Source: Draconibacterium orientale (GTDB taxonomy: Bacteria; Bacteroidota; Bacteroidia; Bacteroidales; Prolixibacteraceae). Taken from it: a stretch of 64,000 bases of DNA. The notes under the pieces are model-generated. The model was not told where the DNA came from and did no database searches. It worked only from the letters and a program-made list of their open reading frames with translations. Below, piece by piece: positions 2,813-32,514 of this stretch. Made by a program: the position numbers and the translations under genes. The stretch spans positions 4,632,501 to 4,696,500 of the forward strand of contig NZ_CP007451.1 in the NCBI RefSeq assembly GCF_000626635.1, given 5' to 3'. Position 1 is the stretch's first letter. Every line of letters starts with the position of its first letter.

Positions 2813-2870
2813 AGAATCCGCAGTTGGCGTACCACCGAACCCCGCCCTGCAATATGTACCGTGTTATGCC
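2813..2870 (-). other. Right half of an attC-like site (truncated array edge)
   Basis: From AATCCGCAGTTGG onward this matches the right half of the complete site at 20962-21098 almost base for base and ends in the core GTTATGCC (2863-2870). The left half (inverse core and left stem) is absent. The core is an exact reverse complement of GGCATAAC at 3704-3711, so the following cassette is intact while its outer attC has been cut, presumably by a deletion or insertion. Confidence 0.75.
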
Positions 2871-2877
2871 CTGTGTT

Positions 2878-3378
2878 TTATTCATTTTTTATCCTATTGT
2901 TTTCCCAATTAGTAATGTCAACTTTCTCAATGTCCTGGATTCTTTTGTATTCGTAATATTGATAAGTTGCAACTCCAATTAAAATCCAGAAAATTGTCCC
3001 AGTAATTAGGAGAACCAGTCTTTGACGAAATTTTGTCTTATAATTTGATTCCGTTAATTCCGTTAATCCGCTGTCAAAGAATTTGAATAATTCATAAGGT
3101 CCGAAAAGGAAGATTTTAATTTTCTCAACGAGTGTATATTTTTCAAATTGATTTCTTTCCTCCTGTTTTTCCCATGCTTTTTTAAATGCGTTTAATTCGT
3201 CTTTTTCTGTTTTTATTTTTTTAAATCTTTCCTCAATTTTATTAGTGTCAAAACCATAGTTTACAAGTTTTTCGAATGATTCATTTTCCAGTTCTTCATC
3301 ATCTGATGTTTTGTAAACTGAAATTAGCCAGTCAACTTCGTCTTTATGTATCTTATTATTTTTCCCCGATAATCTCAT
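2878..3378 (-). CDS. Cassette protein, membrane-anchored hypothetical
   Basis: The protein has 166 residues: a charged, helical N-terminal two thirds (residues 10-95, rich in E and K) and one transmembrane helix at about 122-142 (VLLITGTIFWILIGVATYQY), followed by a short charged tail. No known family is recognised. It is the second gene of cassette 1 and overlaps the end of the upstream gene (3356-3679) by 23 nt, so the two are probably translated together. Its stop codon lies 8 nt from the attC core at 2863-2870. Confidence 0.65.
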   Translation of the reverse strand: MRLSGKNNKIHKDEVDWLISVYKTSDDEELENESFEKLVNYGFDTNKIEERFKKIKTEKDELNAFKKAWEKQEERNQFEKYTLVEKIKIFLFGPYELFKFFDSGLTELTESNYKTKFRQRLVLLITGTIFWILIGVATYQYYEYKRIQDIEKVDITNWENNRIKNE

Positions 3379-3679
3379 CTAATAATATCTCAGAATTTTT
3401 AGGTCTGCTTGGCTCATATTTTACTTTGAATCTATGATTTAGAAACTTTTTAGGATTTTCATAAATGACAATCTCGCCAATATATTTAATGGAGTCTACG
3501 CGATACTCATAATAAACTGCATTTCCTGAACGAGCTAATACTTCATAATCATAGACAAGTCCAGTTGTAATATCAAAGTTTTTCTCAAGGCGATTTTTGT
3601 CGATGAAGTATTTAATTGCAACACTTGCAATTATTAAGAAAAGCAGGGTTATTCCTATGTATTTAATTCTTTCTTTCAA
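3356..3679 (-). CDS. Cassette protein, DUF3592-like membrane protein
   Basis: This 107-residue protein has one N-terminal membrane helix (residues 6-24) and a beta-rich domain ending in a pattern of the type V-x-Y-x-P-x-x-P. That resembles the DUF3592/small membrane protein type often seen in Bacteroidota. Family assignment is tentative. It is the first gene of cassette 1 and starts 25 nt inside the cassette boundary formed by GGCATAAC at 3704-3711. Confidence 0.6.
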   Translation of the reverse strand: MKERIKYIGITLLFLIIASVAIKYFIDKNRLEKNFDITTGLVYDYEVLARSGNAVYYEYRVDSIKYIGEIVIYENPKKFLNHRFKVKYEPSRPKNSEILLDEIIGEK

Positions 3680-3703
3680 AGTTCTTCGGTCTTTTTAACA
3701 TTG

Positions 3704-3838
3704 GGCATAACGGTGGTGGTATGAGGTCGTGGCGGTCAGACGAGAGTCTGACCAGTCCGACCGAAACTGAGGTTGGGACGAGATTCGACTTGTCGAATCC
3801 GTACAAACCCAGCCATGCCTTATACCACGTGTTAGCAT
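3704..3838 (-). other. attC-like recombination site 1
   Basis: The inverse core GGCATAAC and core GTTAGCAT bound a 135-nt imperfect palindrome. Outer arms GTGGTAT/ATACCAC flank an inner stem CGGTCAGAC/GTCTGACC with a GAGA loop, and a second hairpin GATTCGAC/GTCGAATC lies beside it. The left core pairs with 2863-2870 and the right core with 5118-5125, that is with the far ends of the two neighbouring cassettes. Orientation is assigned from the cargo genes, since the cores alone are symmetric. Confidence 0.8.
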
Positions 3839-3846
3839 TAGTATTT

Positions 3847-5117: not shown

Positions 5118-5252
5118 ATGCTAACGGTAAATTATATGTTGTCGTAGCGGATTGCGGGTGATTGTCTGTCCGTGAGGACGAGGACAATCAGGCGGGAATC
5201 CGAGCTACGCATACCAAAGAAACCGCTATGCAATATATAAAATGTTAACAGC
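5118..5252 (-). other. attC-like recombination site 2
   Basis: The inverse core ATGCTAAC (5118-5125) pairs with the core at 3831; the core GTTAACAGC (5244-5252) pairs with 6190-6198. Between them is a 135-nt palindrome with the inner stem ATTGTC-TGTCC / GGAC-GA-GGACAAT, which has unpaired bases on one arm, a hallmark of attC sites. The stop codon of the next gene (5245-5247) lies inside the core. Confidence 0.82.
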
Positions 5253-6189: not shown

Positions 6190-6324
6190 GCTGTTAACGT
6201 TCAATGTATGGTGTCGTAAGGGATTGCGTGCTTCAAACTTATCAAGTTACCACCCAAAATTGATGCGGGTGAAACCGCTCGAAAACCTCTAAAACCCTTA
6301 TGCACTATACATATTGTTGTGCTT
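6190..6324 (-). other. attC-like recombination site 3
   Basis: The inverse core GCTGTTAAC (6190-6198) is the exact complement of the core at 5244; the core GTTGTGCTT (6316-6324) is the complement of 7276-7284. The site is 135 nt long. Outer arms AATGTAT/ATACATAT and AAGGG/CCCTT pair well, but the inner part diverges from the other sites. Confidence 0.78.
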
Positions 6325-7275: not shown

Positions 7276-7412
7276 AAGCACAACGGTCACTTGTAAGTTG
7301 TCGTTGCGGATTTCGGAGCTCGTTCCTGTCCGGCAGGACGGAACGATGTTGCGAGAATCCAGCGAACGACACCGCACGAACCCCGCAATGCAATTTACAA
7401 TTTGTTAGTAGC
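7276..7412 (-). other. attC-like recombination site 4
   Basis: The inverse core AAGCACAAC pairs with the core at 6316; the core GTTAGTAGC (7404-7412) pairs with 8119-8127. The inner stem CGTTCCTGTCC / GGACGGAACG has a GGCA loop and an unpaired T in one arm. The outer arms ACTTGTAA/TTACAATT and TGCGG/CCGCA complete the 137-nt palindrome. Confidence 0.83.
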
Positions 7413-8118: not shown

Positions 8119-8313
8119 GCTACTAACGGTTAGTGCAAGTGTAGTGCGGAACTTTGAAAAGGTTTCCTGTCAAACCCGCACAGAGCCAAGCCGGCGTAGC
8201 ACTAAGTTTGGTTTTTACTACAATCCGTCAACGACGGATTGGCGGTGGTTAAACAGGGCGAAAATATTGGAGTACCCCGCCCGTCCGCATTACATTTGCA
8301 CTTTGTTAGCAAC
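8119..8313 (-). other. attC-like recombination site 5 (long class)
   Basis: The inverse core GCTACTAAC (8119-8127) pairs with 7404; the core GTTAGCAAC (8305-8313) finds its exact complement only at 20351-20359, across 12 kb of chromosomal genes. The site is 195 nt long with arms AGTGCAAGTGTAGTGCGG / CCGCATTACATTTGCACT and an internal hairpin CAATCCGTC/GACGGATTG. It is the last site of array 1. Confidence 0.8.
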
Positions 8314-8453
8314 TGGGTTTTAATTCTTCAACCCCAATTCCTGTTTTATTTTTGCTTTTAAATGTACTTCAAAACTATCCACGAGACACTAATTTATTTT
8401 GTTTTTGCGTGGGCAATCCTAAAACCGCCCATAAGGCGGTTAATTGGGCTGGG
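8314..8453 (+). repeat. Array-edge repeat, right end of array 1
   Basis: This stretch shares blocks with 23698-23861, the right edge of array 2. The shared blocks are CAACTGG directly after the core, AATTTATTTTGTTTTT, GCGTGGGCAATCC and a small hairpin AACCGCC/GGCGGTT (8423-8441). The AT-rich block reappears in reverse complement at the left edges of arrays 2 and 3 (20283-20300, 31748-31764). No gene is seen here. Confidence 0.65.
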
Positions 8454-8519
8454 TTTGCAGGCTCTTTGGCAAGCTTTGCTTAAGCGATGGCTTGTGCGGC
8501 TTGCCAATGTGCCTGCAAA
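8454..8519 (+). repeat. Array-edge hairpin element H, copy 1
   Basis: The outer stem TTTGCAGGC / GCCTGCAAA (9 bp) and inner stem TTGGCAAGC / GCTTGCCAA (9 bp) are separated by a TCT/TGT internal loop and closed by a 24-nt apical loop beginning TTTG. The same architecture with different but still paired stems occurs at 20173-20232, 23862-23920 and 31650-31710. Covariation supports selection on the fold, in DNA or RNA. Confidence 0.75.
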
Positions 8520-8532
8520 TAGGGGAGGCTTG

Positions 8533-9192
8533 CTAACTTCGAACAAACTTCCCTAACGATTCTAAGAGCTGAGGACTATCTTCCAATGCAATTTTTGCAA
8601 CGGCATAGAATTCGCTCATCCAATCGTCCATTTTTGCAAATGCAGCGTCTTTAGCCTTTGTGGCGTCTTGCGATTCTCCTTTTTCTCGTAAATATTCAGC
8701 ACGTGCAGTTTCCATTTCACCGATTAAGGTATTGGCGGCTGTTATATCTTCAGCTGTAATCTTTAATCTTAGCAGTTTAGTTTGAATCTGATTGTCTTTT
8801 TCGGCTACGGAGTAGAATTTTTTTACTGTTTCTAACCATTTAACGTAAGCTCTTGGCAGACTGCCTGAAACTCCCAGTTTGTCGAGTGTTTTTTGGTCGT
8901 TACGGAAGATAACTTTTGCCTTTTTGCGGGCGAGGGAGTAGGAATTCTCCAGGTTCGCCTTTAAAAGTTTAAAAGCGGCATACACTTCTGAGGTTTCATC
9001 GTCTTCGGTTACGTTTAAATCGAATGCCTGACGTGTTTCGCTTAGCAGCGCTTTTCCTTCGGTAATTAGCGCGGCATCGTAGCCAAACTCTGTCATGGCT
9101 GCGGCAATTTCGGGTTGTGTTTCAACATTTTCTAACGATACTCTGTACTGTTCGAGGGCTTCAGCTTCGGATAGCGTTTTCTTGGTTACCAT
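8533..9192 (-). CDS. Hypothetical helical protein
   Basis: This 219-residue protein is almost entirely alpha-helical and rich in A, E and K, with no signal peptide or membrane segment. It reads like a long helical bundle or coiled coil (residues 10-215). No family is recognised with confidence. The stop codon lies 13 nt from hairpin element H, so array 1 ends almost at the gene. A degenerate 21-nt repeat tract lies upstream of its start (about 9217-9437). Confidence 0.7.
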   Translation of the reverse strand: MVTKKTLSEAEALEQYRVSLENVETQPEIAAAMTEFGYDAALITEGKALLSETRQAFDLNVTEDDETSEVYAAFKLLKANLENSYSLARKKAKVIFRNDQKTLDKLGVSGSLPRAYVKWLETVKKFYSVAEKDNQIQTKLLRLKITAEDITAANTLIGEMETARAEYLREKGESQDATKAKDAAFAKMDDWMSEFYAVAKIALEDSPQLLESLGKFVRS

Positions 9193-9216
9193 AGTAATTA
9201 ATTTTAAGGTTTACAT

Positions 9217-9437
9217 TTTATTTTTTATTGCGTACTCCTTACGGATGTTTGCCTGTTTTTTAACGGTACTTTCGCATTCCTTAACGCTTCCCTTCAATTA
9301 TTTCTCGTTTCCCGTGCGTTCCTTAACGCTTCCCATGGTCTCCTTACAGCTTCCTTTCTAATCCTTATGGCTCTCCATGCTCTCCTTACGACTTCTCACG
9401 AATTCCTTATGGTTACCTGGGGTCTCCTTGTTGCTTT
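9217..9437 (-). repeat. Degenerate 21-nt tandem repeat tract
   Basis: On the minus strand TAAGGA recurs about every 21 nt, with spacings of 23, 21, 21, 21, 42, 21 and 21. The consensus resembles TAAGGAG-CAtGGgAAGCG. In one frame it reads as decayed heptads of the type K-E-x-M-x-S with two stops, so it may be a dead repeat-coding region or a structural repeat. It sits upstream of the gene at 8533-9192. Confidence 0.6.
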
Positions 9438-9645
9438 TGTTATTATTTTGTGTGAATCCCTGATTAAGGGTAACTTACTTATGGTTAAAATACCAATGGT
9501 GAATATAAGTATTTTTTTTGTAATAGAAATTCATTAACATTTAAAAAACAATGGATTAATTTAGGGAACTCATCTATAGCCATGGTTGACTCCTAAAATA
9601 TGTTTTTAAGTGGTAATGAATCTGGTATCTAAATTTTGTCTTCTT
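9438..9645. other. Intergenic, no gene seen
   Basis: This is an AT-rich spacer between the 21-nt repeat tract and the end of the outer-membrane protein gene. I see no ORF, RNA gene or clear terminator. Confidence 0.4.
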
Positions 9646-9984
9646 TCAAAATGTATAACCAACTGAAAATTGAATATTCCATTGCAAACCTGTATTTCCG
9701 TATGCACGAAAATCAAGTTCTCCATCGGGAATCTCTGGTGCTCCGGTGCTTAACTCGTCGCTGTTAATTCGCGAATAGAACAAGCCTCCGGTAAACGACT
9801 GGCTAATAAAAAACCGCTTTGTTGGATATAATCTTAAACCATAACCTATCGATAAATCAACAATTGTTTCGCCCAGTTTATATTTGTACTCCTGGTATTG
9901 TTGCAGCTCTTCGTTGTAGAGATTGGAGTTCCAGACAGATTTAAAATGCTGAATATTCAATTCGGATTTTAGCTCGAACGCCAC
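9646..9984 (-). CDS. Outer-membrane beta-barrel protein, C-terminal part (frameshifted)
   Basis: This is the C-terminal half of a PorT/OmpW-type barrel of about 205 residues. It has alternating hydrophobic strands and ends with an aromatic residue (FSVGYTF), as outer-membrane barrels do. The frame is open upstream to about 10033, reading AFGLWQNFANSKKW before the ATG, so it is a direct continuation of 9969-10277 after a single-base shift near 10020-10030. Either the gene is a pseudogene or the base is an error. Confidence 0.65.
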   Translation of the reverse strand: MAFELKSELNIQHFKSVWNSNLYNEELQQYQEYKYKLGETIVDLSIGYGLRLYPTKRFFISQSFTGGLFYSRINSDELSTGAPEIPDGELDFRAYGNTGLQWNIQFSVGYTF

Positions 9985-10277
9985 CCATTTTTTGCTGTTG
10001 GCAAAATTCTGCCATAGCCCAAATGCGCTCCGCTAATTTTTGCCGATTCGGATAAGGACTCGGCATTATCAGTGTAAAGTTGGGTAATAAGCCCAAGTTT
10101 ATAAATATTGTTGTTTTTTATTATGCCAAAATCGTTAACCCAGCCGATCCTAATTGTTTCGGGCATTTTATTCAACACTCCACCTGAACTAATAAAAAAG
10201 TTTTTCTCGTTTTGTGCAGTACTTGTTTGAGATAGCACAGCAAACAGTACCCAAACCAATAGAATTTTCTTCCCCAT
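9969..10277 (-). CDS. Outer-membrane beta-barrel protein, N-terminal part (frameshifted)
   Basis: The ORF has 102 residues with a signal peptide (1-21, ending TSTAQ), followed by beta strands typical of a small outer-membrane barrel. The last 18 residues or so are out of frame; the real continuation is 9646-9984. Its start lies 7 nt downstream of the stop of the alkaline-phosphatase-like gene (10284-11234), so the two probably form one transcript. Confidence 0.65.
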   Translation of the reverse strand: MGKKILLVWVLFAVLSQTSTAQNEKNFFISSGGVLNKMPETIRIGWVNDFGIIKNNNIYKLGLITQLYTDNAESLSESAKISGAHLGYGRILPTAKNGWRSS

Positions 10278-10283
10278 AATATT

Positions 10284-11234
10284 CTATTTAAACAGTTCCC
10301 ACATTACGTTTTTATTGTCGTCGATCTGAAATCCCATTAATTCGCCTACTGTTGGAAGAATATCTACCTGTTCGCGTTCGGTTGTACTAATTACATTCTT
10401 TTTAAAATCGGGACCAACCGCATAAAAGTTCAGGTGAGTGCATCCCGGGCAATTGTCGCCATGCCCAATAAATCCCGTTGCAATGTTATCCAGGTGCCTG
10501 CCATGGTCGTTGGTTACCATAATTGTAGTTTTATTTTTATAAAAATCGTGGTTCTCAATAAACTTATAAAGTTCGTAGGTAAGGCTGTCGGCTATAGCTA
10601 TGCTGTTAACATATTTATCCCAATCGCCAGCATGTCCATTGGCATCGGGTCCTCGAAAATGTAAAAGCACTAATTGTGGCTGATAGTTTGTAAGGATTTC
10701 TGTAGCTTTCTGATAGGTTTCTTCATCATCACGATTTGCTGTATCAAACGATGGATTAAACGAATTTCTCCATTCCACATTTCTGCAATCAGCCAACACA
10801 TTTAGTTTTTCTTTTGATGTAATAATCCAGGCTTTTTCTTTGGGGGCATTACTAATTTTTAACCACATCTGGAAGAACGATGGCTCAGTAGGCAATTGCT
10901 CGCCTTTATTTGATAGAGATTCGTAGTTGCCAGTGCATATTGCCACATGACCAGGTACAGTAAAAGTTACGCCATGGTTGTAAAACTCTGATATTATAAC
11001 GCCCTGAGGAGCCAGCAGATTTGCCATTCTCGGAATATATTTTCTGTCCACACTTTGCCAGGTTTCCGATTGTCGAGGTCCATCGATAACTACAACGATA
11101 ACATTTTCAGTCTTATAAGGCTTGCCTGCTACTTTGCTTAAATCGTCTTCTGTTTCTATTAAGCTTCCGTTGTTGTAACAACCCGTAAACAAGAAGAAAA
11201 ATAGAAATACAAATGCTATGTTTTTAAATCTCAT
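10284..11234 (-). CDS. Alkaline phosphatase superfamily lipoprotein
   Basis: This 316-residue protein has a lipobox ending TGC at about residue 19. The fold is that of the type I phosphodiesterase/alkaline phosphatase superfamily. It has the first metal site in NVIVVVIDGPR (D), the nucleophile Thr in GVTFTVPGHVAICTG, a second metal ligand set in FRGPDANGHAGDWD (D, H), and VTNDHGRH plus HGDN near the C-terminus. It probably cleaves a phosphomonoester or phosphodiester at the periplasmic face of a membrane. The substrate is unknown. Confidence 0.85.
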   Translation of the reverse strand: MRFKNIAFVFLFFFLFTGCYNNGSLIETEDDLSKVAGKPYKTENVIVVVIDGPRQSETWQSVDRKYIPRMANLLAPQGVIISEFYNHGVTFTVPGHVAICTGNYESLSNKGEQLPTEPSFFQMWLKISNAPKEKAWIITSKEKLNVLADCRNVEWRNSFNPSFDTANRDDEETYQKATEILTNYQPQLVLLHFRGPDANGHAGDWDKYVNSIAIADSLTYELYKFIENHDFYKNKTTIMVTNDHGRHLDNIATGFIGHGDNCPGCTHLNFYAVGPDFKKNVISTTEREQVDILPTVGELMGFQIDDNKNVMWELFK

Positions 11235-11396
11235 CTGTTTAAAATTGTTTATTTATTATTGTAACAGATGGAACTCGCATAATCACTATTCTGTGTATTT
11301 ATAAGACTTTTTATTGTGCACGTTTCATCTTATCATGCTATAATGTTCTCACCTGGCTCTTTTGTTTGAAACTTTTTGGGGATTAAACGGTGAGTT

Positions 11397-12101
11397 TTAG
11401 TTTTCAATAATTTCCACTAATTCTCCAATTTCGGTTAACACGTCATCTTCGTATAACTCTTCTTTTATCATGCCAATACCGGGAGCATAATACTTAAACT
11501 CGTATTCATCGGGTTCAGAGGGATTAATATCTTTGGTTTTTATACAATCTGTATAAGTTCCCATTCCAATTGTAACGGTTTCGTTAACAGCTACTACTTC
11601 GGCATAGTCTTCGGCTTCTCCGGCATACCATTCCTGGTAATAAAACTGCCCAACGGTAGGATTTCCCGGAAACCAATAACCCGGTAAAGCTCCATCAACA
11701 CCTGCTTCCCACGAACCATCGTTGTTTGCAAACTGACCATTATTTTTGTTATTAATCACAAATTCGCCTAAATACCAAAGGTTTCCATCATCATCCTGAG
11801 CTAACCAGTCGTCGGTGTCTTCAATTACAATTCCGTTTAAATAAACAATGTCCCGATGAATAATACATTCAATACCCATCACTACTTTGGTTGCTACTTT
11901 ACGGTTTATCCTGACTTCTTCTTCGGGGGCTTTCCCTACCTCACCTGCAACGTATATATATGTTTGGTTGGCTGCAGGACCGTAATAAGGAATAGTAATG
12001 TTAGTTGGTTCCGAAAAAGTTGCCGCATTTATATCGGGAAGCGCATCAGGAGGTGTTGTATTAACGTTTTCTTCTTTACTACACCCCACAACTGTTAGCA
12101 A
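11397..12101 (-). CDS. Bacteroidota lipoprotein, start region disturbed
   Basis: The mature part has 230 residues and is beta-rich, with many W, Y, G and acidic residues (for example DDWLAQDDDGNLWYLGE). A lipobox is visible (LLLTVVGCSKEEN), but the ORF opens at a TTG inside the signal peptide. The upstream frame contains CFISYV and then a stop, while an ATG (MEKNQIKQ, near 12150) sits in another frame. A one- or two-base indel around 12125-12135 would restore a normal 240-residue lipoprotein. The function is unknown. Confidence 0.68.
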   Translation of the reverse strand: MLTVVGCSKEENVNTTPPDALPDINAATFSEPTNITIPYYGPAANQTYIYVAGEVGKAPEEEVRINRKVATKVVMGIECIIHRDIVYLNGIVIEDTDDWLAQDDDGNLWYLGEFVINNKNNGQFANNDGSWEAGVDGALPGYWFPGNPTVGQFYYQEWYAGEAEDYAEVVAVNETVTIGMGTYTDCIKTKDINPSEPDEYEFKYYAPGIGMIKEELYEDDVLTEIGELVEIIEN

Positions 12102-12240
12102 TAAAACATAAGAAATAAAACAGGATTCTGTTTAATTTGATTCTTTTCCATGATTCTTTCTTTTTAGATTTTTGAACGATTAAAATCTTCATTTTTACAA
12201 AAGCAGAAACACAAAGTTTCCTTTAAGCACGAGGCAAGCA

Positions 12241-13878: not shown

Positions 13879-13879
13879 T

Positions 13880-20232: not shown

Positions 20233-20350
20233 TGTGGGTGGGGTTTCAATTTTGCACTAACCATTCATAGAACGGCGCGTGGGAAAAACAAAATAAATTC
20301 TTTCAATTAGGTAGTTCACTTATTAACGAGCGAATGTCTTTTTTAACCTT
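20233..20350 (+). repeat. Array-edge repeat, left end of array 2
   Basis: This stretch contains GCGTGGG followed by AAAAACAAAATAAATT (20283-20300 region), the reverse complement of the AT block at the right array edges. The left edge of array 3 (31711-31893) has the same order of blocks. No gene is seen. Confidence 0.6.
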
Positions 20351-20970: not shown

Positions 20971-21098
20971 GGTTGGTACATGTTGTCGGGGCGGATTTCG
21001 GAGAGCGTTCCTGTCCGAAGGACACGGAACTGCGATGCGAGAATCCGCAGTTGGCGTACCACCAAACCCCGCCCTGCAATATGTACTTTGTTAGGCAC
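20962..21098 (-). other. attC-like recombination site 7
   Basis: The inverse core CACCATAAC pairs with 20535; the core GTTAGGCAC (21090-21098) pairs with 21801. This is the clearest member of the family. The outer arms are GGTACAT/ATGTAC and GGGGCGG/CCCGCCC, then CGGATTTC/GAGAATCCG, and the innermost stem is GTTCCTGTCC / GGACACGGAAC with a GAA loop and an unpaired C. Confidence 0.87.
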
Positions 21099-21800: not shown

Positions 21801-21939
21801 GTGCCTAACGGTTGGTACATGTTGTCGGGGCGGATTTCGGAGAGCGTTCCTGTCCGGTAGGACACGGAACTGCGATGCGAGAATCCGCAGTTGGCGTACC
21901 ACCAAACCCCGCCCTGCAATATGTACCGTGTTACCACAC
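21801..21939 (-). other. attC-like recombination site 8
   Basis: This site is nearly identical to site 7 in its body, but its cores differ: GTGCCTAAC pairs with 21090 and GTTACCACAC (21930-21939) pairs with 23562. The combination of near-identical stems and cassette-specific cores is what a history of recombination at the core would give. Confidence 0.87.
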
Positions 21940-23561: not shown

Positions 23562-23697
23562 GTGTGGTAACGGATGGCGGTATGGTTAGTTGCCGATTTC
23601 GAAGTACTTCCCTGTCAAGTTACAACTACTTTTGATACGAGCTGTGCCGCTCGAATACCCACTGCACCGGCAATTAACTATACCGCGTGTTGGCAAC
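23562..23697 (-). other. attC-like recombination site 9
   Basis: The inverse core GTGTGGTAAC pairs over 10 bases with 21930-21939. The core GTTGGCAAC (23689-23697) finds its exact complement at 31894-31902, 8.2 kb away across ordinary genes. The arms GCGGTATGGTTAGTTGCCG / CGGCAATTAACTATACCGC pair almost perfectly. Confidence 0.82.
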
Positions 23698-23861
23698 TGG
23701 TGTTCATTCATATCTGTCTGTTTGTCATTTATTTAGCTTTATTTTCTTGTCATTATCAATCTGCACGAACCTATCTACAAAGTACAAATTTATTTTGTTT
23801 TTTTGAGCGTGGGCAATCCCAAAACCGTCCTGAAAGGCGGTTACTCGGGCAGGAGAGGCGG
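23698..23861 (+). repeat. Array-edge repeat, right end of array 2
   Basis: CTGG after the core, AAATTTATTTTGTTTTTTT, GCGTGGGCAATCC and the hairpin AACCGTC/GGCGGTT match the right edge of array 1 (8314-8453) in order and spacing. No ORF of interest is seen. Confidence 0.65.
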
Positions 23862-23920
23862 AAGCTCTTCCCGCAAACTTTGGATTTGGTTTGGCTTTGA
23901 GCGGTTTGCGGGATGTGCTT
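23862..23920 (+). repeat. Array-edge hairpin element H, copy 3
   Basis: The outer stem AAGC / GCTT and the perfect inner stem TCCCGCAAAC / GTTTGCGGGA (10 bp) are separated by the TCT/TGT internal loop. The apical loop is 25 nt and starts TTTGGATTTGG. The element ends 16 nt before the stop codon of the TolC-like gene. Confidence 0.74.
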
Positions 23921-23935
23921 ACGACTGTGGGATGG

Positions 23936-25351
23936 CTAATTAGTCAAGTTAATTACAGCAAAATACTCACCACATACATAGTCTAAATCTCTGATTAAGT
24001 CTAAATAATTATTTTCCAGTTGTAACAATGTTTCATGCGTTGATACCAGTGACCTGAATGCCTGGATATAATTATCAACACTTTCCTCTTTTAGCAAATA
24101 CGATTCTTTCTTTGTTGCATAAATCCGTTTCCACGATTGCAAACTGGTCGTTGTACTAATCATTTGCTCTTTTTTCTTGGTAAGTGCATCTTTAAGCTGA
24201 AGGATATCTGACTTAATTAGTTTTCTGCGGTCGGCTATAGTGTAATCAATAGCATTAATATCGGCCTGAGCTTTTGCAATGGTGTGCCTGAGTATTTTTG
24301 GGTCATTTATCTTGATTTTAATACCTGCATCAGCCGTAAGAAAATTGCCCTGTTGCATGTTACCAGTGAATTCATAAAAATTATACCTGCCCCCTGTGGT
24401 TGCATAGATATCCCACTTTCCCTTTTCTGCCAGCCTCTTTTTTTCTTCGGCATTTTTTTTAATAATACCCAATACTTTAAATTCGGTGTCATTATTTAAG
24501 GCTTTGTTAAAAATGCTATCAGTAATTTCGTCGATGTAGTATTTACCAACATATCCGGGTTCGTTAAAATCTATTTCTATTTTTGTTAGCTGGACTAACT
24601 GAATTTGTTCAACATTCATATAACGTTGCATTTGGAGCTGCAACGAATATAGTGTAATCTCCCAACCGGTAATTTTTGAATTCAGATTTGTTATTTCGCC
24701 ACTAATTTGCTCCCTGTCTGAATTTGTTGTGGTAATACTATCATCCTCTAATAGGTTAATTAATTCTTTGCGATATTCAATCAGCATTTCATAAATTTTT
24801 ATTCTGGGAACCAGGTCATAATATTGTTCCAGGGCGTTGAGGATATTTTCCCGAACAGCATCAACATAATCAAGGTTTTTTGTGTAAAGCTCATTTTCCT
24901 CAAATGTCCTTTTTATAATTCTTTCCAATGTTCTGGAAGAAGAAAAAAGCGGAAAGCCAATTTCTGTTTCGATGAAATTTATCGTGCCATGCCCCGTGTT
25001 TTGCTCCCAGTCGTTAAATGTACCTAACGCCACACCAATTGACGAACCATCAAAAAACTCTTTTTTCATCCCGGCAGTCATATCAGAAGCATAGTCACCA
25101 TCTGAGTTTGCACTAAATTTTGGAGCAACTATTAACGGGTTAAACTGAGTGTATTCACTTTCAAATAACTTAAAATTGCTCTTTGCCGATTCCAATTCGT
25201 AGTAGGCTGCTTTAATTCTGTCGTTTTGATTGTAAGTTAACCTGATAATATTTTCAGGATACAACATCATGTCAGTTTCAATGCTGATTTGCGAGAATGA
25301 TACCCGGGCAATCAAAAAACAGGTGGCAAAAAGTGCAGTACGCTTATTCAT
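23936..25351 (-). CDS. TolC-family outer-membrane channel protein
   Basis: The protein has 471 residues with a signal peptide (1-20, ending VSFSQ). It shows long heptad-rich helices at about 45-75, 160-235 and 335-465, as in TolC/OEP proteins, with short beta strands between them. It would form the outer-membrane exit duct of an efflux or secretion system, but no inner-membrane pump is in this operon. It is the last gene of a minus-strand block that starts with a two-component system. Confidence 0.78.
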   Translation of the reverse strand: MNKRTALFATCFLIARVSFSQISIETDMMLYPENIIRLTYNQNDRIKAAYYELESAKSNFKLFESEYTQFNPLIVAPKFSANSDGDYASDMTAGMKKEFFDGSSIGVALGTFNDWEQNTGHGTINFIETEIGFPLFSSSRTLERIIKRTFEENELYTKNLDYVDAVRENILNALEQYYDLVPRIKIYEMLIEYRKELINLLEDDSITTTNSDREQISGEITNLNSKITGWEITLYSLQLQMQRYMNVEQIQLVQLTKIEIDFNEPGYVGKYYIDEITDSIFNKALNNDTEFKVLGIIKKNAEEKKRLAEKGKWDIYATTGGRYNFYEFTGNMQQGNFLTADAGIKIKINDPKILRHTIAKAQADINAIDYTIADRRKLIKSDILQLKDALTKKKEQMISTTTSLQSWKRIYATKKESYLLKEESVDNYIQAFRSLVSTHETLLQLENNYLDLIRDLDYVCGEYFAVINLTN

Positions 25352-25424
25352 TTTTTAAACTTTCAGTTTATCAATAATTTAGGATGATTAATTTAGTTTT
25401 TCCTGATGAACAAAAATTTAACAA

Positions 25425-26102
25425 TTATTCAATTTTAATTTTCAAGTCGTCAAAATAGGTAACCGCGTCTGCTTTTGTCCAAAAGCCGATTAGTCCGGCT
25501 GATATGAACGTATCGTCTGTTGATTCAATCATTGTTTTTCCGTTCATCAAACAGGTGATTTTATTTCCCTTCATCACAATATTCAAGGTAAACCATTCTC
25601 CTTGTTTTATATCGCTATCGGTACTTTCCAATTCTTTACGGCTACCGTTTACGACCCTATAAAAACGTAAATTGTTTTCAAGTGGATTGTACCTTGCTAT
25701 GTAGTAATTGTTTTTATCGATGTACCGCCAAACGAGTCCGCCCCCCTGGTCTTCTTCGCCCGAAATGGCTTTTATTTTAACCGAGGCGGTAAAATTCTCA
25801 CAGGCAATTTTTTCTAAAACAAGCAAATTATAGCAACTGCCCGAGTTTACGGCTTGTTGTTCAACCACCTTGTTGCCATTGTCATTTACAATATTCCATT
25901 TGATGCTTTTGGCTTTATTGGTAGCGTCCGCAACAAAACCTGAAGGCAATTGCCCTTCTGTTTCGTTATCAAAATCAAAAATGGTATCATTCCCTGTTTG
26001 GGAATAAGAATCTTCAACCACAACCTGACTGTTTTTCGATGATACATTGCTGCAAAATGCAACACTTATCATAACTGAAATTGAGATTATTAGTGTTTTC
26101 AT
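25425..26102 (-). CDS. Secreted LamG/DUF1080-like protein
   Basis: The protein has 225 residues with a signal peptide (1-22). The rest resembles a concanavalin-like beta-sandwich of the DUF1080/LamG type: FDFDNETEGQLPSGF near the start, GGGLVWRYIDKNNYYIARY in the middle, then WFTLNIVMKGNKITCLMNG and AGLIGFWTKADAVTYFDDLKI (quoted in parts). Such domains bind or cleave glycans or polymers. It lies directly downstream of the TonB-dependent receptor (12 nt). Confidence 0.72.
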   Translation of the reverse strand: MKTLIISISVMISVAFCSNVSSKNSQVVVEDSYSQTGNDTIFDFDNETEGQLPSGFVADATNKAKSIKWNIVNDNGNKVVEQQAVNSGSCYNLLVLEKIACENFTASVKIKAISGEEDQGGGLVWRYIDKNNYYIARYNPLENNLRFYRVVNGSRKELESTDSDIKQGEWFTLNIVMKGNKITCLMNGKTMIESTDDTFISAGLIGFWTKADAVTYFDDLKIKIE

Positions 26103-26113
26103 TGTGTTTATAT

Positions 26114-28528
26114 TTAATCATTTTTAAATTTATTTTCTAAGAGTTTTTCTTTAAATTCCGACCGGAATGTATATGCGAAAATCAACATAACTGCCCTTGT
26201 ATCTACTTTCCGATAGTGTGTATATTCAAAATTGCTACCGGAAACAGCAGACTCACTGCGCTGTGTATCAAATATATCGGTTACTGTCAAAGCCAAACGC
26301 CCCTGACCTTTTAAGATTTTTTGCTGAAAACCAAGGTCAATAAAATAAACTTCCTTTATAGTGCCTTGTGGAATGACAATGGGCGATGTATAGTTAGCGG
26401 TGATTTGAAACCTGCCGTTTTTCCAAACATCAAAATTGTTGATGAATTTAGCGTATCCTGACAACAAATTTTCCGGGGCATTTTGCAATTTGGCACTTGG
26501 TTCAATTCTTTGTTCGTATATTGATGCATCAAGATTTATTTTCCAAAAATTAAACGGGTTATAAGTAAAAAAAGCTTCTACCCCGTAAGTGGAAGAATTG
26601 CCAAAATTTTCAGGTCGTGTTGTGCTTACTCCGCTATTGTCGATAGAGGTATAAGGGAAAATACTGTTGCTCGTCAGGCGGTAAAACAAGGAAGTCGTAA
26701 GGCTTGCCTTTTTAAAGGTTTGATTTTGTGTTAATTCAAATGAGTGTGAAATTTCAGGCTGAATATCGGGATTGCCCGACCAAACGTTCAACGAATCAGT
26801 AATATCAATGAAGGGACTGTAATCGCCAATTGATGGTCTGTTAATTCGTTTGCTGTAAGCAAGTTTAAATGAATTTCTTTTTGCAGTGTAGTAAATGAGC
26901 GATGCTGAAGGGAAGATATGGAAGTATTCGTTTGAAAAACTATATGGAGAGTGAACATTATCACCAGTATTAGAAACCGGTTCAGCCCTCAACCCCAACT
27001 GATATTTCCATGTTGGTTCCTGCTGTGTACCGGTCCAACCTGTGTATTGCAGATACAGGGCATGTATTTGTTCGTTGAATTTAAAGATGTCTGTATGTGC
27101 TGAATCGGTTATATAAATTTCGTTCTCCTCGTTAGAGCGGAGATAATCATCATTGATAAACCTAAGCGTGGTTTTATAACCGGTTTCAAATAATCCTGAT
27201 TCTTTTATCGGATGCAAATAGTTTATCGAGAAATTAGTCAGGTTGGCATCTTCGTAAAAATGTGTTTTCTGTAAAAACGGGTTGCCTATCTCAGCGTTTT
27301 CCTCCGATAAGTTTTGAGTAGAGATGTCGGTGTTTTCCCTGTTGTATTCAATTGCAGAGTTTGCATCAATGATAAGCGCTCTGTTTTGATTGAAATTTCT
27401 CGTATAATTGAACAAGAGTTCGCCTGTATGGAAACGTCTGATTTCATTTGAGTATCGGCTGTTACGGCTTGTGAAGTCATGCAATGATGTTTCTGTGGTG
27501 CTAACAATGGTTTCATAATTATCTTGTCCTTCAAAAAGCCAGATACCTTCCAATCTAAAACTGTTTTTTGAATTTGGGGTATAGCCCACATTAAAGCGTG
27601 CCGTTTGGGTTTGTATGGTACGTTCGTCTTGCCGCGGCTGTGATAGATAATATTTATCGTCAGAATCGTATTGAACACGCTGTTTGTTTACTGTGCGTGT
27701 TCTGGTAGTAAACCAATTGTCGTAAGCCAGACCTAAATCCCATTTCTGGGTATTATGGTTAATAAGGAAGGAGCCGTTTAAGCGATAGCGTGCCCCCAAA
27801 CCGCCTCCCAAAGCTGCCGCTCCGTTTGTGCCAAGGGTTGTATTACTTTTAAGAACAATGTTTATAATTCCGCTTTCGGCATCGGCATCGTATTTTGCAG
27901 AAGGGTTTGTAATAATTTCGATACGCTCGATGGTGCTTGCAGGGATTTGTTCCAGATTTGTTACTCTGTCCACTCCGCCAATACCGGAAATCCTGCCATT
28001 TATCATTATCAAAGGGTTTTTCCCCCTCATGGTTAAATTTCCTTCCATATCTACCTGCACCCCGGGCATATTTTTCATTAAGTCGGCTGCTGTACCGCCA
28101 ATTTGTGTCAAATTTTCCGATGCGTTCACCACAATTCCTTCATCGGTTTTCTGAATTAGGTTGCGAAAAGCAGTAATCTCAACAGAGTTCAATGCGATGG
28201 CATCCTGCTTCAATATTATTGTTCCTAATTCTATATTTTTATTTGCATCGTTTAGTAATACAGTTTGTTGATGATTAACGAATCCTACAAACCGAAACTG
28301 AATAAAATACTTACCAAGAGGGACATCTGTCAATACAAAACTGCCCTTATTATCTGTAACCGTACCATTGACAATGCGAGTTGAATCGTTAACGGAAGTA
28401 AGAAAAACATTGACAAATTCGACAATATTGTTTTCGCTGTCTAATACTTTGCCTGATATACTTCCTGATTTTTGCCCAAAAGCCAATACCTGTATTAACA
28501 GCATTAGTGAAAATAATCCGTATCTCAT
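26114..28528 (-). CDS. TonB-dependent receptor, outer-membrane beta-barrel family
   Basis: The protein has 804 residues. It has a signal peptide (1-18), a CarboxypepD_reg-like domain (about 22-110), a plug domain (about 120-225; TAADLMKNMPGVQVDMEGN, PASTIERIEIITNPSAKYDA) and an OMP_b-brl_3-type barrel to the C-terminus. It imports a siderophore, metal complex, vitamin or glycan using TonB energy. The adjacent YVTN protein and two-component system suggest regulated uptake. The ligand is not evident. Confidence 0.88.
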   Translation of the reverse strand: MRYGLFSLMLLIQVLAFGQKSGSISGKVLDSENNIVEFVNVFLTSVNDSTRIVNGTVTDNKGSFVLTDVPLGKYFIQFRFVGFVNHQQTVLLNDANKNIELGTIILKQDAIALNSVEITAFRNLIQKTDEGIVVNASENLTQIGGTAADLMKNMPGVQVDMEGNLTMRGKNPLIMINGRISGIGGVDRVTNLEQIPASTIERIEIITNPSAKYDADAESGIINIVLKSNTTLGTNGAAALGGGLGARYRLNGSFLINHNTQKWDLGLAYDNWFTTRTRTVNKQRVQYDSDDKYYLSQPRQDERTIQTQTARFNVGYTPNSKNSFRLEGIWLFEGQDNYETIVSTTETSLHDFTSRNSRYSNEIRRFHTGELLFNYTRNFNQNRALIIDANSAIEYNRENTDISTQNLSEENAEIGNPFLQKTHFYEDANLTNFSINYLHPIKESGLFETGYKTTLRFINDDYLRSNEENEIYITDSAHTDIFKFNEQIHALYLQYTGWTGTQQEPTWKYQLGLRAEPVSNTGDNVHSPYSFSNEYFHIFPSASLIYYTAKRNSFKLAYSKRINRPSIGDYSPFIDITDSLNVWSGNPDIQPEISHSFELTQNQTFKKASLTTSLFYRLTSNSIFPYTSIDNSGVSTTRPENFGNSSTYGVEAFFTYNPFNFWKINLDASIYEQRIEPSAKLQNAPENLLSGYAKFINNFDVWKNGRFQITANYTSPIVIPQGTIKEVYFIDLGFQQKILKGQGRLALTVTDIFDTQRSESAVSGSNFEYTHYRKVDTRAVMLIFAYTFRSEFKEKLLENKFKND

Positions 28529-28538
28529 AAATCAACAA

Positions 28539-29516
28539 TTATTTTGTATTTGCCACCCACAAACGTTTTGGGTTTTTCCCAACCGGAATAGTTGCCACCA
28601 CTTTCCAATTTGCAACATCAATAATACTTGCATCATTGGATGAAGTGTTACTGACCACAGCAAATTTTCCGTCAGATGAAAATTCAATCCAGTTCGGGTT
28701 TTTCCCGGCTGTAATATTTTTCATGATTTTATCCGATGCTACATCAATAGCCGTTACATCATTGGTAAACTGGCTTGTTAGGTAAACAGTTTTGCCATCA
28801 GGTGCAACGCAAAGTCCGTGGGCAGCTTTCCCTTCGTTATCAAATTTATCAGATTGAGGTAAAAGCACTTGAGCAATAATTTTGTTTTGCTCCGCATCAA
28901 TCTTTACCAAACCGTGAAACCAGCGAATGGTTAGGTAAATATATTTGCCGTCGGGTGTTGCTGTCATTACTCTTGGAAAACCGAAAGTGGGAATTTCTGA
29001 TACAACCTTCATACTGTCCAGATTCAATTTCACAATTTTGTTGTCGCCTTCGGAAGTAACCCAAACGTTTTTTCCGTCGGGCATTGGCAACACAATGTGA
29101 GGGTTTTTGCCAACGGGAATTGAATTTACAAGTTTCCAATCTGCGGTTGAAATCACATCTACCTTATGTTCCCCATTGATTGCGGTTAAAACATACTTTC
29201 CGTCAATACTGAAACTTAACTGGTGGGGTGTCTTACCAACAGAAATGGTCTGTTTTACTTTATTGTCTGCCGCACTAATGATAGAAACTGTATTATCGCC
29301 TTCATTACTAACAGCAATCCAGCTTCCGTCTGGTGAAACTGCTACTCCGTGCGGCTTGCTTCCGGTGATAACTTCAGAAAACTTTTGATTTTTCTGAATG
29401 TCAATGACTGATATAAAGTCGCTGCCGTAGTTGGTAATGTACGCTTTTGGCGTCTGCGCAAAAAGCACTGTGCTAATTAGTGCTATTGCTGTTGTCAAGA
29501 TTATTTTGCTCTTCAT
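28539..29516 (-). CDS. YVTN-repeat (YncE-like) periplasmic beta-propeller
   Basis: The protein has 325 residues with a signal peptide (1-20). Seven or so propeller blades of about 42 residues follow, each with the pattern P-D-G-K-x-x-x-V/L-T/S...V-x-V-I-D (SPDGSWIAVSNEGDNTVSII, MPDGKNVWVTSEGDN, TPDGKYIYLTIRW, APDGKTVYLTSQ). It is probably a periplasmic binding scaffold. It is encoded 10 nt upstream of the TonB-dependent receptor, an arrangement seen in metal and metallophore uptake loci. Confidence 0.86.
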   Translation of the reverse strand: MKSKIILTTAIALISTVLFAQTPKAYITNYGSDFISVIDIQKNQKFSEVITGSKPHGVAVSPDGSWIAVSNEGDNTVSIISAADNKVKQTISVGKTPHQLSFSIDGKYVLTAINGEHKVDVISTADWKLVNSIPVGKNPHIVLPMPDGKNVWVTSEGDNKIVKLNLDSMKVVSEIPTFGFPRVMTATPDGKYIYLTIRWFHGLVKIDAEQNKIIAQVLLPQSDKFDNEGKAAHGLCVAPDGKTVYLTSQFTNDVTAIDVASDKIMKNITAGKNPNWIEFSSDGKFAVVSNTSSNDASIIDVANWKVVATIPVGKNPKRLWVANTK

Positions 29517-29590
29517 TTTCTAATAGTTTTAAATGATTTATCTTACAAAGGAAACCATTGAATCTGTAGAAAAATGGGAATCGAAACTGT

Positions 29591-30874
29591 TTATTGAAAA
29601 TTCACTTCGAAGATATGCAAGGCTCCATCACTTCGGTAACAAAGTTCCCAACCGCTGGTATCTGCAATTTTTTTAGCTATGGACAATCCGAGACCCCACG
29701 AATCAGGATTTCCCGATTGCTTATAAAAACGGTTAAACAATTTTTCTTTATCCAACATTGAGCCTTCTTCATCTTTTTTGTGGCCTGAATTGGAAATAGT
29801 AAGCTGCTTTTCTCCTACATAAATGGTTAGTATGCCATTTTCTGTATTATGCAAAAAAGCATTTTTAAGCAGGTTCTGAATAAGAATTTCCGTGAGCATG
29901 ATATTGCCCTGTACTGTCAGTTGGGTTTCTGATTTAATCGTTACTGAAATATTAAGTTTTGATTTCTGTTCTTCATAATATTCCATTGACTGCCGTATAA
30001 TCTGATTTACATCAACCTGGTCAGTTAACAGGAACTGACGATTTTCAATTTTCGATAGTAAAAGAAGGGTTTTATTTAGTTTTTTTAAACGTTGGGTGGA
30101 GCTTATAAGTCCTTCCACAATCTCTGCCTGCTCTTTTGTCAACTCTGCCCGCCCTATTAGGGCTTCCAGTCGTGACTGCATTACGGCAAGTGGTGTTTGC
30201 ATTTCATGGGAGGCATTTTCAATAAATTGTTTTTGACTGGTAAATACTTCCATATTTTTCAAAACCAATTCATTAATGGACTCATTAAGCATCTTAAATT
30301 CTTCAATCTGAGAAGATGATAACTCTGGAAGCTGCTGCTTGTCGAGGCGAAAACCACGAAGTTTTTCCAACATATCGTAGAATGGTTTCCAAATTTTTCG
30401 TGAAATTATTCGCTGTGATAAATAAAAAGAGAGTGATAGCCCGGTAAGCAAAATTCCAAGAAAAAAGGCAATTGTGCCTAACATTTCATCGGCTTCAAGA
30501 TGCGGTGCTAAAATCTCCAATTTGTAATATTGGTTATGGATTTCTACAAAAGTGTTTAATTTCCTGTATTCATCGAGTTCATCATCTACAGGTTCATAAA
30601 TTAGCGTATCTGTATAGTTTTCTTTGCTTTTTTGGAAAGTTGCAGCATCTATGGCATAAAAAGTAAAATCGTCCAGCGGGTTATCACCTTGAAATGGAGC
30701 TTCAGGATTGGTTTTGAGGTATGCAAGCAGGTTAATTTTTCTATTATGCAACACCTCGTCCACATTCCGAAGTACATTCCAGTTAAGCACTACGTAAAAC
30801 AGAATGGAAAAAATTCCAAACAGAATCATGAAATAACGCAACTGAATCCGTGAGGTGTAGGTAAGTAGCTTCAT
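29591..30874 (-). CDS. Sensor histidine kinase
   Basis: The protein has 427 residues. There are two membrane helices (about 13-32 and 131-152) with a periplasmic sensor region between them. The DHp helix carries the phospho-acceptor in ENASHEMQTPLAVMQ (about residue 218). The ATPase domain has the N box LLKNAFLHN and G box GLGLSIAKKI. It is paired with the response regulator by a 4-nt overlap. The signal is unknown; the neighbouring genes point to an envelope or nutrient cue. Confidence 0.92.
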   Translation of the reverse strand: MKLLTYTSRIQLRYFMILFGIFSILFYVVLNWNVLRNVDEVLHNRKINLLAYLKTNPEAPFQGDNPLDDFTFYAIDAATFQKSKENYTDTLIYEPVDDELDEYRKLNTFVEIHNQYYKLEILAPHLEADEMLGTIAFFLGILLTGLSLSFYLSQRIISRKIWKPFYDMLEKLRGFRLDKQQLPELSSSQIEEFKMLNESINELVLKNMEVFTSQKQFIENASHEMQTPLAVMQSRLEALIGRAELTKEQAEIVEGLISSTQRLKKLNKTLLLLSKIENRQFLLTDQVDVNQIIRQSMEYYEEQKSKLNISVTIKSETQLTVQGNIMLTEILIQNLLKNAFLHNTENGILTIYVGEKQLTISNSGHKKDEEGSMLDKEKLFNRFYKQSGNPDSWGLGLSIAKKIADTSGWELCYRSDGALHIFEVNFQ

Positions 30875-31554
30875 CGTGCTTTTATTTGATAACCTATTCC
30901 ATAAACATTGTTAATTTCTACGTCTGCCCCGGCTTCTTTCAGCTTACGTTTTAAGTTCCTTATCTGTGAGAAAAGGAAATCGAAACTTTGGGCTTCATCC
31001 ACATAATCTCCCCAGATATATTCTGCCAGTGATACCTTGGAAAGAACCCGTTTATGATTATTAATGAGATAGCTAAGTAAAGCGAATTCTTTTTTAGTAA
31101 ATGAAATGGGGTTATCAAGGTTGCTTACACCAATGAGGTGTTGGTCTGGTTCAATAATCAGGTTAGAAAAGTGTACGATTTTGTTTGTCTTAAATTGCTT
31201 TCTACGGATAATGGCTTTAATTCTGGCATTTAGCTCAGAGAAATAGAATGGTTTGGTAAGGTAATCGTCGGCACCCAGTCCAAGCCCTTTTAGTTTATCA
31301 TCTAATGAATCACGTGCTGAAAGTATTATGACCCCATTTGTCTTGCCTTCTTTATGCAGGGCTTCAAGTATATCGAAACCATTTCCGTCAGGAAGGTTAA
31401 TATCAAGTACAATGCAATCGTAGTCGTAAAGAGCGATGCGTTCAGCAGCAGAACAAAATCCTTGGGAAGAATCATACAGGTATCCCTCTTTGGATGCAAA
31501 ATCTTCCAAACTTTTTAATAATTGCGGTTCGTCTTCTACGATAAGTAATTTCAT
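30871..31554 (-). CDS. OmpR-family response regulator
   Basis: The protein has 227 residues. The receiver domain has the acidic pocket in LLIVEDEPQ, the phosphorylated Asp in CIVLDINLPDGNGFD (about residue 51), and Lys in ADDYLTKPFYF. The C-terminal winged helix (about 130-225) contains FTKKEFALLSYLINN and VDVHI-type packing. It is the first gene of the block and probably activates the downstream outer-membrane genes. Confidence 0.93.
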   Translation of the reverse strand: MKLLIVEDEPQLLKSLEDFASKEGYLYDSSQGFCSAAERIALYDYDCIVLDINLPDGNGFDILEALHKEGKTNGVIILSARDSLDDKLKGLGLGADDYLTKPFYFSELNARIKAIIRRKQFKTNKIVHFSNLIIEPDQHLIGVSNLDNPISFTKKEFALLSYLINNHKRVLSKVSLAEYIWGDYVDEAQSFDFLFSQIRNLKRKLKEAGADVEINNVYGIGYQIKAR

Positions 31555-31649
31555 AAATACAAATTAAGGGATAAATTCTGTAGAAACATTGGAGATATTT
31601 TATGCCTGATAATATTCTCTAAAATGTCCGAGGGTTCCTGGTGGTAGGC

Positions 31650-31710
31650 TGCACTCTTTGACAAAGCTTTGGTTTCAGCGTTGGCTCGTGGGGCTTTGGC
31701 AATGTGTGCA
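31650..31710 (+). repeat. Array-edge hairpin element H, copy 4
   Basis: The outer stem TGCAC / GTGCA is perfect. After the TCT/TGT internal loop comes the inner stem TTGACAAAGC / GCTTTGGCAA (9 of 10), with a 25-nt apical loop that starts TTTGGTTTCAGCG. It is followed by TGTGGGTGGGGTTT, as next to copy 2. Confidence 0.73.
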
Positions 31711-31893
31711 ATGTGGGTGGGGTTTTATTCTTTTTTGCGGGTGGGAAGAAAAAACAAAATAAATTTGGCTCCGCCGAGCTCCACTTCGTTCCGGTTCCAT
31801 CAAATTTGCACTGTCCTGTCAAAAAGCTAAATCTTTTCTTTCGTTATTATTTGTCACTATTGTATCTGTCTGGTCGTCTGTCTTTTTACACTT
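31711..31893 (+). repeat. Array-edge repeat, left end of array 3
   Basis: This stretch contains GTGGGAAG followed by AAAAAACAAAATAAATTTG, the reverse complement of the AT block at the right edges. It is GC-poor otherwise and has no gene I can support. Confidence 0.6.
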
Positions 31894-32086
31894 GTTGCCA
31901 ACGGCCGCGTGCATGTGGAGTGCGGCATTTGAAAAACTACACTTCCATTTTAGCCACTGAGCCAATTCGTTTATTCGTATTTATATTTTTTAGCCGATTC
32001 GTCAATGACGAATTGGCGTTGTTAAACAAAGCTTTTCTGTTCGCATACGTAGTCTGCCAGCATTACATATGCACGTTGTTATGGTG
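31894..32086 (-). other. attC-like recombination site 10 (long class)
   Basis: This is a near-identical copy of site 6. The inverse core GTTGCCAAC (31894-31902) complements the core at 23689; the core GTTATGGTG (32078-32086) complements 32506-32514. It is the only complete site of array 3. Confidence 0.8.
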
Positions 32087-32514
32087 TCGGCAAAAGCCTC
32101 TGCGTGGCAGCCCGAAGCTTACCTGGGTTTTCCTGAACCGAAGGAGGGCTGGCGGAATGTTTGCCCCTCCCAAGTGATGTGCCAATTTTGACATCCAGCC
32201 CAGGTAACCACCTGCCCAATTGTCGGCAGTGAACAACCACTGTGTGGCCATAATTTTCACCGGCTTTGTTAAACACGCCGACGTCAGCTAGCTTAACTTG
32301 ACGGTTAAAATTGGCGCAGGAGTTGACAAACCGCAAACATTGTGACCGCCCGAACAGGCTTTTGTACGGGCTCTTATGAGCTTAACGCAGCCCCACCAAA
32401 CAACAAAGCATAGTCAGCCCGCTTAAAAAGAGTGGGGCGTGAAAACCCACCATACCAATATTTTAAAGAACAAGTTCGCATACTAACGATAACCCCCAAA
32501 CGCTGCACCATAAC
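32078..32514 (-). other. Cassette 9, duplicate of cassette 6
   Basis: The sequence is almost the same as 20535-20970 except for a block of about 50 bp (about 32211-32255), where the two differ at most positions. The right boundary core CACCATAAC (32506-32514) is intact, but the attC body that should follow is missing: after CACCATAACG the sequence changes to TACATGGAACCC. Array 3 is therefore truncated at about 32516. Confidence 0.65.

Follow-up and report, generated by a model that had tools for sequence, protein, structure and literature searches.

A 64,000-nucleotide (nt) stretch of the Draconibacterium orientale chromosome (bases 4632501 to 4696500 of a one-contig chromosome of 5.13 Mb; here called the window) carries an array of gene cassettes with a recombination site, attI, and the remains of a recombinase gene at one end. 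Very probably, this array is a second, decayed copy of an integron-like chromosomal platform with a Xer-like tyrosine recombinase that lacks the additional domain of the integron integrase IntI. Judged from its sequence, the system appears integron-like in its working but fails the test that defines the integrase.

The window has palindromic sites between positions 2813 and 32080, ten of them complete and one a right half, and an attI at about 32512 to 32600 (Table 1). Every complete site starts with AAC and ends with GTT, at a length of 123 to 126 nt in seven sites and 181 to 183 nt in three. Read along the minus strand, the order is a recombinase stump, attI, and 11 cassettes that each end in their own attC-like site, the last of which is halved. 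An earlier, sequence-only reading had located all ten complete sites at or within a few bases of these places and had also listed two half sites; one of these (A0) is a true half attC-like site, whereas the other, at 32514, is the attI. The nine pairs of neighboring cores that it listed are all exact, and two pairs that it missed (8307/20357 and 23691/31900; 9 bases each) were found in addition. Because these two junctions pair as well, what had been described as three arrays is one continuous array, and the two apparent gaps are cassettes of 12.2 kb and ~8.3 kb, both with their long open reading frames (ORFs) on the minus strand.

Pairing of the cores at the two ends of a cassette is the rule in this array. 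All 11 neighbor junctions in the window pair by 9 to 10 bases, while 4 of 110 non-neighbor pairings reach 7 bases; two of these, explained by the B1 and C1 cassettes being copies, reach 9 bases. Within a single site, the left core matches the right one by only 3 to 5 bases. A covariance model (R1) built from 23 sites of the source genome gave 143 matches in 41 sources chosen around recombinases, sites, and the window, and 132 of the matches had readable cores at both ends. Neighboring R1-found sites less than 3 kb apart matched by at least 7 bases in 87 of 95 cases, a count that is independent of the core rule, and neighbors at any distance did so in 96 of 108 cases. The corresponding figures were 4.4% for random pairings and 2 of 132 for the pairs formed by a site's own two cores; matches of at least 9 bases occurred in ~1.4% of random pairings in the wider pool from these sources. 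Chaining of sites into arrays admits weak sites through the core rule, and the corresponding figure of 104 of 115 chained steps is not an independent test of it. By the same core test, a classical IntI locus used as a yardstick (L135) showed no paired 9-base cores. One-way cassettes that each end in an attC-like site with paired end cores, as in an integron, are thus present, and the sequence-only reading was borne out in its view of attC-like cassettes of a single polarity with cassette-specific cores in a member of the Bacteroidota.

The same chromosome holds a complete element at 903.7 to 939.0 kb, with an intact tyrosine recombinase of 373 amino acids (P0001, encoded at 903703 to 904824), an attI 86 bp after its stop codon, and 19 chained sites that reach 939.0 kb; cargo and recombinase are on the same strand. 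The attI of the window has about the same sequence as that of the intact element and lies at about the same distance from the recombinase stop, and its core pairs by 9 bases with C1. In the window stump, 60 amino acids are 73% identical to residues 314 to 373 of P0001; the catalytic residues His319, Arg322, and His345 are replaced, and Tyr354 is retained. The window element is probably a decayed sister of the 904-kb element and, since its stump lacks three catalytic residues, could only be served in trans. The description of the array as integrase-less therefore holds insofar as no intact integrase is in the window, but it overlooked the stump and attI there and the intact recombinase with the same type of attI elsewhere in the chromosome. 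A third array, of five sites with an attI-like sequence, lies at 2.02 Mb, where no match to P0001 was found.

Linkage of recombinase, attI, and sites extends beyond this genome. An attI and a first attC core followed a co-directional recombinase in 20 of 21 chosen loci, the window included (the miss was G024/L131), at 40 to 165 bp and most often 86 to 93 bp past the stop codon. Upstream of its GTT, attI contains an inverted repeat as well as direct ones, and their sequence differs between recombinases. Eighty named loci were chosen for their recombinase only; they belong to Prolixibacteraceae, Marinilabiliaceae, Marinifilaceae, Flavobacteriaceae, and, in a few cases, metagenome bins assigned to other phyla. 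Several come from the same genomes as loci of another set (e.g., G004/L147), so that the two sets overlap. R1 matches were present in 28 of the 80, and all 84 matches lay downstream of the recombinase and on the strand opposite to it. A simple attI test was passed by 32 of 56 eligible named loci, versus 2, 3, and 4 in three letter controls. The recombinase of this system thus has an attI beside it, as in an integron. R1 sites were found at E ≤ 0.01 in 34 of 41 genomes (own and relatives) and at E ≤ 1e-5 in 68 of 148 genomes sampled across the phylum, where many of the listed matches are scattered. The background-level model scores that the sequence-only reading had named as a reason to abandon its claim were not observed: the model from 23 own sites matches other genera with E values down to ~1e-22.

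At one locus (L132 and L136; G051:C5, recombinase at 22807 to 23826), recombinase and cassettes point away from each other on either side of attI, which is the usual layout of classical integrons. The recombinase was also present in bins labeled Neomarinimicrobiota, Syntrophaceae, Sabulitectum, and Spirochaetaceae (L192, L199, L201, and L217), by transfer or mis-binning; the metagenome bins of L199 and L201 also have site matches.

The sites are conserved as a folded bottom strand, as attC sites are. In the alignment of their arms, 98.0% of 2204 cells were paired, compared with 33 to 54% when the arms were slid; covariation was 0.687 versus 0.172 after shuffling, with 540 versus 150 double changes. 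In the alignment from the named loci, 97.2% of cells were paired; both alignments were fitted to the model structure and lean toward it. G-T pairs outnumbered A-C pairs 415 to 37 in 104 distinct model-found sites. The same bias (239 to 24) was present in 63 sites that were found strand-blind and without the model, and hence independently of R1, in 17 of 42 loci tried; 61 of these sites had more G-T, one had more A-C, and one was a tie. Two wobbles are near-fixed (134 and 138 of 138 rows; 78 and 79 of 82 in the named loci). In the strand-blind set, 49 of the 63 sites have one of these wobbles 10 bases before GTT, 54 have the other 15 bases before it, and 57 have a third that adjoins GTT. Of 104 cassettes, 100 had their longest ORF on the cargo strand. 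Of 125 sites, minimum free energy favored the fold strand in 117 under DNA parameters and in 118 under RNA parameters. The outer helix grows longer when the two ends of a cassette are joined, and the hairpin so formed was more stable than the in-array site in 104 of 104 cassettes, which, like the 104 in the ORF-strand and 415-to-37 counts, come from core-rule chaining. A left-arm bulge at position 16 to 17 occurs in part of the 104 distinct sites (25 and 17 gaps); the rest have a mismatch or neither.

We propose that the strand opposite the cargo goes single-stranded and that the site of the cassette then folds into a hairpin. The outer 9 to 10 bp (R box) would form only when both ends come from one cassette, and pairing would thereby check cassette identity. 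The recombinase, which the intact element at 904 kb would supply, may cut at AA^C, which is G^TT on the cargo strand; the folded strand would then be joined to a double-stranded attI or to another site. The strand is likely to be marked by the near-invariant G-T wobbles, each of which would read as an A-C mismatch on the opposite strand. Alternatively, the recombinase could act on double-stranded sites by ordinary two-strand exchange, with the palindromes as paired binding sites, which would suit a Xer-like enzyme without a single-strand domain and the conventional repeat layout of attI. This seems rather unlikely to us, since the bases beside GTT vary freely between sites and attI and leave little spacer homology, the palindromes are broken mostly one way (G-T on one strand), and strand polarity is fixed relative to the cargo.

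Characterization of the recombinase bears on whether the hairpin system belongs to an ordinary integron. P0001 has all six catalytic residues; the first His is Gln in 2 of 21 array- or attI-linked rows. The spacing between the catalytic Lys and His is 64 to 65 residues in the 21 array- or attI-linked enzymes and 107 in 12 IntI rows (IntI4 and 11 others); it is 72 in four Xer-like rows, 69 in a fifth, 66 to 68 in archaeal XerA, and 65 in six gut-type rows. The 64-to-65 spacing, compared with 107, indicates that the additional domain (I2) is missing. On the integron-integrase model, P0001 scored 198.3 bits, below the curated cutoff of 265, in two stretches between which positions 180 to 239 are missing; the IntI with I2 by which an integron is recognized thus appears to be lacking here. 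In a tree from which P0122 and L108 were excluded, and in which Xer and IntI names were assigned by similarity and family matches, array-linked and gut enzymes grouped together (support 97/93), separately from IntI (100/100) and Xer (96/95). The gut branch is nested inside the array-linked rows; several other rows are very long-branched and of unsure placement. About 100 N-terminal residues of P0001 have no Pfam match, and the enzymes of L199 and L201, which still have sites, are without them. The closest named proteins are from Draconibacterium (88%) and Maribellus (81%).

These features make it improbable that the window is an ordinary integron of classical IntI, or a CALIN (cluster of attC sites lacking integrases), whose recombinase merely looks unusual. 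Such an element would have the same layout of attI, cassettes, R-box rule, and bottom-strand hairpins; P0001 does score on the integron-integrase model, with IntI4 as its best match among solved structures; and a true IntI occurs in the order (G043), as do IntI proteins in Bacteroidales bins. Against this stand the subthreshold score with its missing positions, the short Lys-His spacing, the separate IntI clade, and the finding that IntI exceeded the curated cutoff in only 1 of 61 genomes searched (G043), yet sites are present in 34 of 41; none exceeded it in the source genome. Because the cognate recombinase is not IntI, the proposal of an ordinary CALIN is unsupported.

Copies of cassettes within the genome point to site-precise mobility. 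Three cassette families comprise 10 copies (five of 611 to 612 nt, three of 842 to 843 nt, and two of 1840 nt), which in 14 pairwise comparisons were 93 to 100% identical end to end. The copies have different neighbors, and one lies at attI. Past the predicted AA^C cut, identity continued for only 2 to 6 bases on the left and 2 to 11 on the right, including the AA or CGG common to every site. In the window, the B1 cassette (20359 to 20969) has a 100% identical copy in the 904-kb array, the A4 cassette (7284 to 8126) is identical over 843 nt to a copy in that array, and four further copies of the C1 cassette exist in the genome; half site A0 matches the right half of B3 at 98% identity over 54 bases. 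A fixed cassette order in related genomes, which the sequence-only reading had held would tell against it, was not seen: copies of the same cassette stand between different neighbors, with borders at the predicted point. Self-spreading palindromic repeats between genes without cassette function (like repetitive extragenic palindromes or miniature inverted-repeat transposable elements) could explain solitary sites away from arrays and the many listed matches scattered in other genomes but are hardly credible, as they fail to predict core pairing across a gene, an attI beside the recombinase, or exact-edged copies of gene plus site.

An RNA element was considered and rejected: Rfam gave no match at its cutoffs in window positions 1 to 35000, and the folding strand runs opposite to transcription of the cargo.

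Draconibacterium halophilum (G029), whose recombinase is 88% identical, has an array of its own, with 40 candidate sites, of which 30 were kept because they chained, and pairing at 25 of 29 steps. In the 75 kb compared, no whole cassette was shared with the source genome, and 5 of 30 query cassettes (with 150-base flanks) had any match of at least 180 nt; with so little sharing, a map of gain and loss is impossible. A recurrent unit with GGCAGTCTGTCTAAAAA / TTTTTAGACAGTCTGA ends, which abuts site starts and is without GTT, was seen at 308 to 312 kb of the D. halophilum genome (L243) and at ~7861 of L131 and is perhaps another site class. In the source genome, a solitary cassette of 680 nt (L043; G000:C1, ~2314790 to 2315469), with end cores that pair by 10 bases and flanks of ...GACTT|C and ACAA|CTAAAA, lies outside any array found and is a possible case of non-attI integration. 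Eight tyrosine recombinase matches were found within ~10.6 kb, on both strands, at 3817302 to 3827890 of the chromosome (L045; G000:C1).

Several observations weigh against an integron-like platform as read here. R1 scores within the source genome are circular, since the training sites come from it. The core rule is broken in 8 of 95 close neighbor pairs, 3 of which have an intervening site undetected by R1. No R1 match was found at 52 of the 80 named loci, many with little downstream sequence; 24 of the 56 eligible loci failed the attI test; and its upstream control was not clean (8 of 53). Relatives on the gut branch, of the Bacteroides, Parabacteroides, and Prevotella type, had no attI (0 of 12) and no model match (L194, L196 to L198, L200, L205, L206, L208, L209, L211, L212, and L214), indicating that the enzyme need not be accompanied by cassettes. 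Gain or loss of cassettes between strains was not seen, and the one search for an empty site, that of the solitary cassette at 2315346, found none in the other 36 genomes of the genus. Finally, the absence of I2 is a reading of an alignment.

Compared with known systems, the platform resembles a chromosomal (sedentary) IntI integron in its recombinase, its attI with repeats, its one-way cassettes ending in attC, the predicted G^TT cut, R-box pairing across the cassette, a folding strand opposite the cargo, and cassette duplication and turnover. It differs in that the recombinase is without the additional domain and in a separate clade, reads in the direction of the cassettes at most loci seen (G051, where it is divergent, is an exception), and is accompanied by a cassette-specific R box of 9 to 10 bp, fixed G-T wobbles, and multigene cassettes of up to 12 kb. 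With XerC/XerD and archaeal XerA, the enzyme shares the catalytic R-K-H-R-H-Y and a short Lys-His spacing; the separate clade, the ~100 extra N-terminal residues of most members, and the link to attI and cassette arrays set it apart. Genes are also moved by Xer-type recombinases between short sites in Xer-dif gene modules, a likeness to the present system; here, however, the sites are 120- to 190-nt hairpins with cassette-specific cores and an attI. Clustered sites without a working integrase are what the window shares with a CALIN or In0 in the sense used in the account of IntegronFinder 2.0 (PMC9024848); unlike these, it keeps an attI and a recombinase stump, and its sites were called by their own model.

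Table 1. Features of the cassette array in the window, in minus-strand order (strand of a site, folding strand; score, model R1 unless stated)
Feature	Positions	Strand	Score	Core pairing (bases)	Description
Recombinase stump	32601..32846	-	Pfam PF00589, 31.3 bits		81-amino-acid ORF, C-terminal end only
attI	32512..32600	-			Direct repeats ATAACCCAAC, inverted repeat beside core, then TAC^GTTATGGTG
Site C1	31900..32080	+	Undetected at E ≤ 0.1	9 to attI, 9 to B4	181 nt
Large cassette	23692..31899	-		End cores pair by 9	~8.3 kb including site; Pfam: OEP, 3-keto-disaccharide hydrolase-like, TonB receptor, beta-propeller, histidine kinase, response regulator
Site B4	23569..23691	+	101 bits	10 to B3	Training site
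Site B3	21807..21932	+	113.1 bits	9 to B2	Training site
Site B2	20968..21092	+	117.6 bits	9 to B1	Training site
Site B1	20357..20537	+	Undetected at E ≤ 0.1	9 to A5, 9 to B2	181 nt
Large cassette	8308..20356	-	No match inside	End cores pair by 9	12.2 kb including site; Pfam: sulfatase/phosphodiesterase, two PMT-like, LAB_N, GT2, PAP2, outer-membrane barrel, extracytoplasmic function (ECF) sigma factor
Site A5	8125..8307	+	58.8 bits	9 to A4	183 nt; non-training site
Site A4	7282..7406	+	125 bits		Training site
Site A3	6196..6318	+	92.5 bits	9 to A2	Training site
Site A2	5123..5246	+	100.6 bits	10 to A1	Training site
Site A1	3709..3833	+	86.1 bits	9 to A0	Training site
Site A0	2813..2865	+		9 to A1	Right half of truncated site, far end of array; core GTTATGCCC

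The genes of the two large cassettes look like envelope functions in their family matches, of lipid A/glycan type with an ECF sigma factor in one and an efflux/TonB group with a two-component system in the other. At 3847 to 5080, two overlapping frames match the two halves of the candidate defense protein PDC-S54, so that the gene looks split; 6762 to 7283 shows weak resemblance to a type II restriction enzyme.

According to one paper (PMC7790495), cassette capture requires the I2 helix, which is the source of single-strand activity of the integrase and is absent from other proteins. A recombinase survey (PMC8138268) describes the insertion as "not fully conserved" in its integron-like subgroup, and relatives without I2 may already have been seen there. 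Archaeal integrons are described as retaining the additional domain (PMC9668308), and the account of IntegronFinder 2.0 (PMC9024848) states that IntI is readily distinguished by its extra domain and, for Bacteroidetes proper, names a single complete integron, that of Salinibacter. Integrons as such are mentioned from Bacteroidota (PMC8618304 and PMC9668308), and true IntI proteins from Bacteroidales exist; the new part is therefore the recombinase, its attI, and the site grammar. A description of the system was not found among titles and abstract beginnings in the open full-text literature, a scope outside which preprints and most subscription journals fall.

We see about an even chance that the system is a second independent integron lineage, common across Bacteroidota, in which single-stranded hairpins are captured by an enzyme that has never possessed the I2 helix; the strand would be chosen by invariant G-T wobbles, and no I2 would dock extrahelical bases to choose it. 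Standard tools may fail to see a large pool of cassettes. If true, a widespread cassette platform with an enzyme lacking I2 would mean that cassette capture arose twice or preceded I2, and the question would become testable.

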